A DNA stretch of 37,489 nt from positions 1 through 37,489 of the IMG/VR virus record IMGVR_UViG_3300032282_005139, one strand, 5' to 3'. The position numbers and the translations under genes are program-made. Source of the DNA: a virus. Positions 35,903 to 37,489 of the stretch are shown piece after piece (the first letter of the stretch is position 1; the number at the start of each line of letters is the position of its first letter). The notes beneath the pieces are model-generated. The model saw only the letters and a program-made list of their open reading frames with translations. It was not told the DNA's origin and made no database searches.

Positions 35903-36080
35903 AAGGTGGTACTAGGGGATATTTATCCACCTTGTAAGGCTTTAACGAGCCCACGGGGGTATACCCATGTCTCATCAGATCGACATTAAATGTCTGTGAA
36001 CCATGCCTTATTGATTAACGCATGTAAATCAAGTTAATTAGGAGACACGCAAGCCTTAATAGTGTGTAGTAATTGGAGGG
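35903..36080 (+). promoter_or_regulatory. Leader element copy 1: stems, upstream ORF and pseudoknot
   Basis: Gene-free 35763-36086 holds this leader; I find nothing convincing in the AT-rich first half. A 7-bp hairpin (AAGGTGG 35903-35909 with CCACCTT 35927-35933) is followed by an 8-bp closing helix (TAAGGCTT 35935-35942 with AAGCCTTA 36051-36058). Inside are TGTCTC/GAGACA (35968-35973/36042-36047), a small hairpin GACAT-TAA-ATGTC, and an H-type pseudoknot. Its first stem is ATGC 36003-36006 with GCAT 36020-36023, and its second is GATTAAC 36013-36019 with GTTAATT 36033-36039. Copies 2 and 3 keep the hairpin and pseudoknot with different stem bases. It probably regulates the downstream gene. 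Confidence 0.6.
35967..35999 (+). CDS. Leader peptide ORF, copy 1 (10 aa)
   Basis: ATG TCT ... TGA encodes MSHQIDIKCL, with GGGGG 8 nt upstream as a possible ribosome-binding site. The peptides of copies 2 and 3 share S--ID-KC-, and the TGA ends 3 nt before the pseudoknot. Conservation may be of RNA, peptide or both. Confidence 0.4.
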   Translation: MSHQIDIKCL

Positions 36081-36086
36081 CCATAC

Positions 36087-36662
36087 TTGGCTACTTACAC
36101 AACCAATAAACCTGTGCTGTCAGATACAGCATACGACCTATTCATGCGGGTAATCTCCGCTGCACTAGAGGGACGTTATTACTACGGTAATGGTGCCCTA
36201 TGGTACATCAATGAGTATGGCAAGAAGCTAGTAGTAGATACTATACACAACACAGTGGAAGAGGTGCCTCACTATGAGGGTACCATGCACACTGAACAGC
36301 ATGTAGCATCTAGCCTACTTGACTTCCTACGTACAGCACAAACAGATAGCTATGTGGCCGTACATACCGGTGGATCAATGCAGTATTTTGTTGACCAATT
36401 GGTGCAGGCTGCAGCAGCTAATCGTGTGCTGTTTGGTAACGGTGCATACTACGTATTTACCAAGGAAAATGGGACAGTAATCTGGTTAGATTATATCTCA
36501 GGAAACCAGGGTGAAATACAGGTAACTACCATGACAAAATTAGGCTCATGGCAGTACAAAGAGATGATGCAAAGTGAACGCATTTCTGAATATTCACGTC
36601 AGTGGATTTTGGAGCACAACGGGACTAATATCCTAAGGTGTATCTACAAGATAGCTAGCTAA
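36087..36662 (+). CDS. Hypothetical protein, 191 aa (TTG start)
   Basis: TTG 36087 with GGAGGG 7 nt upstream gives MATYTTNKPVLSDTAYDLFM... The protein has aromatic-rich duplicated segments: RYYYGNGALWYINEYGKKLVV and, later, VLFGNGAYYVFTKENGTVIWL, suggesting a two-repeat architecture. It carries an in-frame CGG at 36147 (CGGG) that is evidently read as a normal Arg triplet, because the +1 frame meets a stop at once. Codon use is more GC-rich than in the recA region. No family recognised. Confidence 0.7.
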   Translation: MATYTTNKPVLSDTAYDLFMRVISAALEGRYYYGNGALWYINEYGKKLVVDTIHNTVEEVPHYEGTMHTEQHVASSLLDFLRTAQTDSYVAVHTGGSMQYFVDQLVQAAAANRVLFGNGAYYVFTKENGTVIWLDYISGNQGEIQVTTMTKLGSWQYKEMMQSERISEYSRQWILEHNGTNILRCIYKIAS

Positions 36663-36750
36663 TTAGCTACCTTACCGACCTGGGTATGTCGTTAAACTGC
36701 CTGGGGAATAGGCCCTTCCTATTATCCTATTTTATCCTTAGGAGGATAGA

Positions 36751-36951
36751 ATAAACCAACTCAGGTCCTGGGTAGGAGAGCATAAGGCAATCATATTGCT
36801 TCTTGTCCTCATCCTCACCCCGGTTGCTAGCTGGGCTGTAGCGATCACGATGTCAATCATCGGGTTCGTTTTTGGCTTGGTGAACTGGTTTGGTCTCTTC
36901 ATCGCAGTTGCTCTTGTAGCATACTCGGTGAAGCGCCAGATCACTCTCTAG
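36751..36951 (+). CDS. Small membrane protein, 66 aa, probable ATA start
   Basis: AGGAGG (36740-36745) lies 5 nt before ATA 36751, opening INQLRSWVGEHKAIILLLVLI and ending at TAG 36951. Two hydrophobic segments (about residues 13-37 and 38-60) predict a two-span membrane protein with a short basic tail (KRQITL). No ATG, GTG or TTG sits at ribosome-binding distance. AGGATA overlapping the AGGAGG can pair with TATCCT just upstream, so the ribosome site may be occluded. Holin-like size, but no proof of lysis function. Confidence 0.55.
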   Translation: MNQLRSWVGEHKAIILLLVLILTPVASWAVAITMSIIGFVFGLVNWFGLFIAVALVAYSVKRQITL

Positions 36952-36984
36952 TGACCATGGACAACTACCAGATGCAATAGTTCT

Positions 36985-37121
36985 GGAGGGGTTTGTTGTA
37001 TACCTGGCAACAGAAACAACACATGTCTAATTGGATCGACAATAAATGTCCATGAACCAACCGTTGACCCGGAGGTTGTAAATCACAGGGTCATTATCAA
37101 CCACTAGTTAAGGAGGATATC
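36985..37121 (+). promoter_or_regulatory. Leader element copy 2
   Basis: The gap 36952-37121 consists of this leader. It has an upstream ORF, the small hairpin (GACAATAAATGTC with one mismatch) and a pseudoknot. Stem 1 is CAACC 37058-37062 with GGTTG 37074-37078; stem 2 is GACCC 37066-37070 with GGGTC 37088-37092, and the linking loop TAAATCACA is shared with copy 3. It is followed by AGGAGG and the TTG start of the LysM protein. Confidence 0.6.
36996..37055 (+). CDS. Leader peptide ORF, copy 2
   Basis: TTG 36996 just after GGAGGGG opens a 19-aa peptide containing an in-frame ATG at 37023. The C-terminal ten residues, MSNWIDNKCP, align with copies 1 and 3. TGA lies 2 nt before pseudoknot stem 1. 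Confidence 0.4.
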   Translation: MYTWQQKQHMSNWIDNKCP

Positions 37122-37397
37122 TTGTATATCTTTGGAACTAAATTAAAAGTATTCATTATTGTGGCATTCCTGCTGGGATTGTTTTCATTAATTCACACTA
37201 GGTTAACTGAAATGAGTGTGAAGTGTCAAGCACAGACAGTGGTGGTGAACCCAGAAGATAATACCTTTTGGGCCATTGCTCATAATCATTGCAGTGGCAT
37301 AACAAGCAATGTAGTGGACATGATGGTGGAAAAGAACCCTAAACTTAAACCTGATCAACTGCAATATGGTCAGATTGTGGTTCTTCCTAATAGCTAA
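37122..37397 (+). CDS. Membrane-anchored or secreted LysM-like protein, 91 aa (TTG start)
   Basis: AGGAGG ends 6 nt before TTG 37122. Residues 8-25 form a hydrophobic helix after a basic N-terminus (signal anchor or signal peptide). Residues about 45-90 read NPEDNTFWAIAHNHCSGIT...MMVEKNPKLKPDQLQYGQIVVLP, a LysM-like arrangement (W.IA, NP, L..GQ.I.LP). It probably binds peptidoglycan from outside the membrane; superinfection exclusion, lysis or moron function are possible. Cys35 and Cys57 could form a disulphide. Confidence 0.72.
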   Translation: MYIFGTKLKVFIIVAFLLGLFSLIHTRLTEMSVKCQAQTVVVNPEDNTFWAIAHNHCSGITSNVVDMMVEKNPKLKPDQLQYGQIVVLPNS

Positions 37398-37407
37398 TCC
37401 ATTGCAA

Positions 37408-37489
37408 TTGTCTAATTGGATCGACGTTAAATGTCCATGATCCAACCGTTAACCAAGAGGTTGTAAATCACATGGTTATTCAACCACAA
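37408..37489 (+). promoter_or_regulatory. Leader element copy 3 (cut by window end)
   Basis: TTG 37408 opens a peptide with SNWIDVKCP ending at TGA 37440. The hairpin GACGT-TAA-ATGTC follows the family pattern. The pseudoknot has stem 1 CAACC 37443-37447 with GGTTG 37459-37463, and stem 2 AACCA 37451-37455 with TGGTT 37473-37477, a compensatory change from copy 2. A further gene presumably follows outside the window. Confidence 0.58.

Follow-up and report, generated by a model that had tools for sequence, protein, structure and literature searches.

Here we report a structured RNA element of about 75 nucleotides (nt), built of two H-type pseudoknots in tandem, that recurs before genes of an accessory operon in a 37.5-kb viral contig (IMG/VR record IMGVR_UViG_3300032282_005139; the whole stretch of 37,489 nt is termed the window) and in related phage contigs. 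Each copy comprises a first pseudoknot (PK1), a TGANCC linker and a second pseudoknot (PK2); both are established by covariation, as two folds in that order, situated between an upstream stop codon or an operon start and a Shine-Dalgarno site. A further small knot in the same operon, at 36676-36702, closely resembles coremin, an RNA motif of plant viruses. From the tandem element and this coremin-like knot we infer, with a probability of roughly 0.45, that these sequences are exoribonuclease-blocking phage leaders, counterparts of exoribonuclease-resistant RNAs (xrRNAs), which would protect the cistrons downstream of them.

The core pattern GATCGACNNTAAATGTCNNTGA occurs three times in the window, at 35978, 37034 and 37419, against 0.02 occurrences expected in shuffled sequence with up to three mismatches; the three leader copies claimed in an earlier note on this DNA are therefore present. 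Scans of IMG/VR with stepwise relaxed patterns retrieved 9, then 17, then 18 stretches, and because the final relaxation added a single contig, already known from a protein search, the family appears to be tight. The sample, including the window, consists of 16 related phage contigs (in part fragments) bearing 21 distinct copies; the element is known from this one group of related phages, and its covariation rests on 17 to 21 distinct rows. A tandem-pseudoknot scan, which employs a simple stacking score in place of a full pseudoknot model, recovered the element in nearly all contigs, with one chance case in 168 kb of shuffled DNA. No copy was retrieved by a tight-pattern scan of 84,980 prokaryote genomes or by blastn among INPHARED phages, and the element matched no Rfam family when covariance models were applied at the gathering score. 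The copies in the window, given with stem 1 (S1) and stem 2 (S2) of each knot, are:

35967-35996, plus strand: PK1 of copy 1, from covariation over the 21 copies and the tandem scan; S1 ATGTC (35967-35971) / GACAT (35982-35986), S2 CAGAT (35976-35980) / GTCTG (35992-35996), loops TCAT, C and TAAAT
36002-36040, plus strand: PK2 of copy 1; S1 CATGC (36002-36006) / GCATG (36020-36024), S2 TGATTAAC (36012-36019) / GTTAATTA (36033-36040), third loop TAAATCAA
37024-37052, plus strand: PK1 of copy 2; S1 TGTC/GACA, S2 TGGAT (37032-37036) / GTCCA (37048-37052)
37058-37093, plus strand: PK2 of copy 2; CAACC-GT-TGACCC-GGA-GGTTG-TAAATCACA-GGGTCA
37409-37437, plus strand: PK1 of copy 3; S1 TGTC/GACG, S2 TGGAT (37417-37421) / GTCCA (37433-37437)
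37443-37478, plus strand: PK2 of copy 3; CAACC-GT-TAACCA-AGA-GGTTG-TAAATCACA-TGGTTA

PK1 occupies the block that had earlier been read as a conserved short peptide. A scan for H-type pseudoknots reported this block as a knot in its own right, with the form nGTC/GACn for S1, a NNAT loop, YRGAT/GTCYR for S2, one free base (C, T or A) and a TAAMT loop. When a gap-free alignment of 35 columns and 17 distinct rows was inspected, columns 4 and 21 (the letter before GTC and the letter after GAC) proved to be paired in every row, as CG (5), UA (5), AU (3), GC (2) or UG (2), and S2 covaried as UGGAU/GUCCA, CAGAU/GUCUG and UGGAU/AUCCA; across the full set of 21 distinct copies these two flanking letters likewise match without exception, by all four Watson-Crick pairs and U-G. 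Pairing was observed in 94.1% of cells, compared with 84.8% in shuffles, and double changes in 19 cells compared with 4.5, while slid partners gave at most 42.4% pairing and at most one double-change cell. The fold explains the variable NN that follows GAC, the change among C, T and A that precedes it, and the TGTC-to-TATC change of one copy. PK1 also holds strictly conserved letters, and a G-U pair between columns 16 and 28, kept in 16 of the 17 rows, points to RNA of the coding strand. Two other foldings were considered and set aside: a simple YRGA/TCYR hairpin in place of PK1 leaves the covariation of the letters flanking GTC and GAC unexplained, and an outer helix GTCT(C)/(G)AGAC around the element of type A (copies at operon or unit starts, described below), which is broken in the relatives L042 (GTCC) and L047 (GTCA) and competes with S1 of PK1, is not claimed.

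No conserved peptide is present. In eleven of the 21 distinct copies in the 16 contigs, the interval from the in-frame stop upstream to the block holds no ATG, GTG or TTG, in L008 the block is immediately preceded by the codon TAG, and copies with an ATG directly before the block have no Shine-Dalgarno sequence preceding; the column pattern that suggested coding is accounted for by PK1 pairing. Since the frame is an accidental reading of PK1, startless in half of the copies, no ribosome would come to rest on stem 1 upon finishing a peptide, and the translation-switched fold envisaged in the earlier note is lost with it. A leader-peptide attenuator, as originally proposed, could appeal to a frame that ends in TGA or TAA in all copies and to Ser and Ile codons that vary at third positions; given the missing start codons, the TAG and the lack of a ribosome-binding sequence, we attach almost no probability to it.

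PK2, by contrast with the peptide, was correctly recognized as a real covarying pseudoknot of a repeated leader: it is found in all three window copies, and 18 further distinct copies preserve its pairing. Five distinct S1 stems (CAACC, CATGC, CCAGC, CCTGG and CTTGG) and 11 distinct S2 stems each pair with their own partner. The PK2 of each window copy outscores 199 or more of 200 dinucleotide shuffles of its own stretch, as does that of 20 of the 21 copies, the exception (L046) having one S2 mismatch; when S2 partners were swapped between copies the observed pairing was never reached in 20,000 permutations, a comparison that favours the chosen stems because these were selected by pairing, so that the per-copy shuffles are the fairer measure. 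The MAFFT alignment misplaces PK2 of type A copies, which were judged copy by copy; for the complete double pseudoknot of intercistronic copies, 95.7% of cells are paired, against 88.6% in shuffles and at most 38.5% with slid partners. A TAAATCA link between the stems, said to be kept, does hold in the copies of the window, but across relatives the third loop is merely A-rich (TAAAACACA, TCAAACAA, ACAACTAC). An alternative pairing of GGTTG with a downstream CAACC, available to intercistronic (type B) copies in the window and L008, is absent in others (e.g., L044 and L070) and is not claimed.

A different compact knot lies between the first and second cistrons of the operon:

36676-36702, plus strand: coremin-like pseudoknot CGAC-CT-GGGTA-T-GTCG-TTAAAC-TGCCT, before the second cistron, from scans and covariation

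Defined as the 27-nt motif NGAC-CU-NNGYA-N-GUCN-UUAAAC-URCNN, it was retrieved from IMG/VR at 59 loci in many different phages, with six copies in one contig, two to four in others, and a single strand used per contig; the reversed control pattern gave no match in the same scan. Across 49 distinct sequences, 95.9% of cells are paired (87.8% in shuffles) and 41 show double changes (13.5 in shuffles). Similarity searches identified the motif in phages of Staphylococcus, Lactobacillus, Anoxybacillus, Gordonia, Moorella, Cellulosimicrobium, Corynebacterium, Microbacterium and Nostoc, and further in the thermophilic phage D6E, one Microviridae genome, and plasmids of Ligilactobacillus and other Firmicutes; its carriers include the Corynebacterium glutamicum phage phi673 and a Lactobacillus gasseri phage. 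In six opened records, from Staphylococcus, Lactobacillus (two), Anoxybacillus, D6E and a Ligilactobacillus plasmid, it lies directly before scaffold/capsid genes, and in two others before tRNA genes; the contig L129 (1706-4376) bears a coremin-like knot just ahead of a tRNA array with a ROOL RNA among its members. None of these folds, the coremin-like knot included, matched Rfam, and no description of the phage pseudoknot motifs was found in the open-access literature. None of 5,426 E. coli genomes was matched by either of two queries. A control query with another variant produced short matches only, inside Helicobacter and Vibrio genes, indicating that the database by itself does not account for the host bias. 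RNase J is a bacterial 5'-3' exoribonuclease that E. coli lacks, and the named hosts, from Staphylococcus through Nostoc, presumably all have it.

Because the coremin core is shared, the geometry of PK1 is alike, and the named hosts would have RNase J, we propose the leaders as exoribonuclease barriers. PK1 and the coremin-like knot are almost alike in geometry, with a stem of 4-5 base pairs (bp), a second of 5 bp, a one-base junction and a loop of 5-6 nt (UUAAAY/UAAMU), and PK1 reads GACGUUAAAU in several copies. The element would act in cis, as a leader RNA transcribed from the coding strand and placed before individual genes of the accessory operon. Host RNase J, entering at the 5' end or at an upstream endonuclease cut, would encounter the compact knots as mechanical barriers, such that the downstream cistron, together with its ribosome-binding site, may survive degradation; the coremin-like knot at 36676-36702, before a neighbouring gene, would represent another form of this device.

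Several points weigh against this proposal. We take the RNase J status of the hosts from general knowledge, and the link to the enzyme is drawn from the hosts of named carriers of the coremin-like motif. The correlation with hosts depends on two or three query variants used in similarity searches, whose sensitivity differs between collections. Some coremin-like copies stand directly before tRNA genes, where protection of mRNA is a less obvious purpose. Loop 1 of coremin follows the rule YGAD or YGNNAD (PMC10520033), which the phage motif (CU...AN) does not obey.

In the window, the minus strand holds a large structural block (portal, terminase and tail proteins), and a RecA gene is also encoded; the accessory operon occupies the plus strand from about 35.97 kb through the contig end. 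The terminase has as its closest isolate Moorella phage MTATph1 (37% identity), and no Photo_RC (psbA/psbD) gene was found in the 16 records, leaving a cyanophage identity without support. Apart from the knots, the features of the operon are:

36045-36067, plus strand: hairpin ACACGC...GTGTGT behind operon-start (type A) copies, recognized from the sequence of relatives, which read ACACAC/GTGTGT or ACACTA/TAGTGT
36087-36662, plus strand: first gene, 191 amino acids (aa), TTG start; relatives 82-88% identical, no confident protein family in a family search
36796-36951, plus strand: second cistron, an open reading frame for a short membrane-like protein, start uncertain
37122-37397, plus strand: open reading frame for a protein of 91 aa, beginning at a TTG preceded by AAGGAGG; LysM-like, from weak matches that fall short of the curated cut-off for LysM

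Every gene of this operon has one or two small pseudoknots in front of it. All copies of the tandem element lie on the coding strand, at an operon start or between genes. Type A copies open either the operon, ahead of the 191-aa gene, or a later unit; those of L065 and L068 follow a terminator and a CTAG palindrome, and those of the window, L042 and L008 follow a GGGGGTATACCCC hairpin. Most other copies are of type B, placed 6-12 nt past the stop codon of the upstream gene. Thus copy 3 (37410) starts about 12 nt after the stop of the LysM-like gene at 37397, its own downstream gene lying beyond the contig end, while copy 2 is exceptional for its type at about 73 nt from the upstream stop.

Some additional sequences were noted in this setting. 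A conserved GCCCACGGGGGTATACCCC hairpin stands directly 5' of operon-start copies that have no preceding terminator (window 35945-35966, L042, L043, L046 and L008). The palindrome ATG-nCTAG-nnn-AnAG...CTAGn, with covarying arms and variable spacing, directly follows intrinsic terminators between accessory genes, at 3361, 5099 and 9969 in L065, 4533 and 7865 in L067, about 3460 in L008 (reverse complement, rc), and in the cyanomyophages L075 and L076; marine cyanomyophages have a similar terminator plus CTAGGTATAA sequence after the head genes gp24 and gp23. The palindrome is a candidate promoter or 5' hairpin. An Rfam alpha_tmRNA match at 36910-37024 of the window scored 21.1 bits, below the gathering score of 50, and was taken as probably due to chance.

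Comparison of relatives reveals a 125-aa gene between two copies of the element in L008 where L009 has a single copy, and likewise in L045 relative to L044 (L008 (rc) 3997-4506 against L009 9715; L045 6980-7489 against L044 6980), with breakpoints in the element, which fits gain or loss of gene-plus-element units by recombination between repeat copies. The same pattern could suggest that the element is a DNA-level site for exchange of accessory cassettes, integron-like or homologous. We regard this as scarcely probable: tyrosine integrase (PF00589) is absent from the 16 records, in part fragments, the conserved G-U pair of PK1 fits RNA rather than DNA, the orientation of the element is always that of the gene, and the exchange is explicable as a by-product of homologous recombination between repeats.

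A Shine-Dalgarno site follows PK2 by 15-71 nt, outside the element, in all copies with sufficient downstream sequence, and in the window no terminator lies between the element and its gene; consequently, neither of the usual riboswitch outputs is seen. The earlier suggestion of a ligand-binding fold finds no support, no riboswitch of Rfam being matched. A metabolite riboswitch with PK1 or PK2 as aptamer might draw on the strictly conserved letters of PK1, and compact H-type folds occur in several riboswitch classes; lacking both a family match and an expression platform, and preceding unrelated phage accessory genes, the element is very improbably of this kind. An element resembling the put antiterminators, whose nascent RNA would bind RNA polymerase and allow terminators of the operon to be passed, is also quite unlikely. 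In its favour, some unit-start copies are preceded by a terminator, and one relative carries 27 terminator-like sites in its accessory region (9.1 in shuffles), of which the strong sites lie on the coding strand. Against it, copies stand before individual genes, often 6-12 nt past upstream stops and not once per transcript, and in the window itself no strong terminator follows copy 1.

Knots of the same topology and other sequence are frequent in these regions. On the coding strand of the 162-kb relative G012, the 12.6 kb of accessory region hold 17 strong pseudoknots (scan score at or below -16.2), compared with 19 across the remaining 149.9 kb (p ~3e-9). Folds of other sequence in leaders of G012 and of further relatives include another tandem pair of H-type folds in L065 (4254 and 4288, to 4320), the folds CCAC-UAU-UGGUAGUA-G-GUGG-CAAAUCA-UACUACCA at L065 8517 and GCGG-CAA-UGAUGAU-C-CCGC-AUAAGU-AUCAUCA at L044 7072, and, at L044 5890 and in L068, a PK2 preceded by a different 5' hairpin. 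H-type leaders of still other sequence stand before other accessory genes at L070 (rc) 6031, L068 (rc) 10102, L009 10240, L065 5626 and L009 8217. A topology that is kept while sequences differ speaks against a shared cause in the form of a single ligand or a single sequence-specific protein.

This consideration applies to the main rival, a translational operator like that of gp32, at which a phage RNA-binding protein would nucleate on the pseudoknots, cover the Shine-Dalgarno site and time a regulon. The pseudoknot lies a short distance 5' of that site, one kind of element precedes several genes, and the gene 32 operator of T4 and RB69 offers a precedent (PMC535899). Against it, neighbouring genes are preceded by quite different pseudoknot sequences, the downstream sequences show no repeated UUAAA/UAAA tract like that of the gp32 operator, and the varied downstream genes include none recognized as a single-strand binding protein; we consider an operator unlikely.

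Returning to exoribonuclease blockage, we tentatively extend it to a broader family of blocking pseudoknots (PK1-PK2, the UUAAAC knot and sister folds) in phages of RNase J-bearing bacteria, which, positioned gene by gene and in many phages ahead of the scaffold/capsid operon, might set the stability of single cistrons, and which may be convergent with or related to coremin. The tandem element is in any event a new family of structured RNA, cleanly covarying and outside Rfam. Known examples of xrRNAs come from eukaryotic RNA viruses, and to our knowledge none has previously been known from DNA viruses or bacteria; if our proposal is correct, these would be the first of both, and would provide phages with a simple RNA device for shielding chosen cistrons where hosts degrade mRNA 5'-first. 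The direct question raised is whether RNase J is halted at these folds.

Among known systems, the preQ1 and SAM-II riboswitches share with the tandem element a compact H-type fold and an A-rich third loop; the phage element differs in having no Rfam match, a Shine-Dalgarno site outside the fold, and unrelated genes downstream. The put antiterminator RNAs of the lambdoid phage HK022 are likewise structured RNAs at the start of phage early transcripts, comprising two stem-loops and one site per transcript, whereas here pseudoknots precede individual genes; type A copies fit the put position and type B copies do not. The T4/RB69 gene 32 operator similarly places an H-type pseudoknot ahead of the Shine-Dalgarno site of a phage leader, but it is a single knot before one gene, with UUAAA repeats and gp32 binding, in place of a tandem element before many genes (PMC535899). 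A close likeness is seen to coremin, GUCCGAAGACGUUAAACUAC (xrRNA_C; beet necrotic yellow vein virus (BNYVV) RNA3 and cucumoviruses), which halts Xrn1, a 5'-3' exonuclease, and is also able to arrest scanning ribosomes (PMC10520033). Coremin and the motif at 36676 share stem and tail almost letter for letter, with a short GUC/GAC stem followed by GUUAAACU(A/G)C, and both occupy intergenic and untranslated-region positions. The 4-bp hp1 stem of coremin with its GUC/GAC core has its equivalent in CGAC/GTCG at 36676-36702 and in CGTC/GACG and others in relatives. The spacer UUAAAC followed by U(A/G)C, although part of the definition by which the 49 sequences were collected, is also present in INPHARED and plasmid matches found by BLAST. 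The phage motif has a longer loop (CUNNGYAN), which forms 5 bp with the tail and, as CU-NNGYA-N, departs from the YG...AD pattern; the setting is that of DNA phages in bacteria, with PK1 and PK2 in tandem. PK1 itself has the geometry of coremin and often reads GACGUUAAA.

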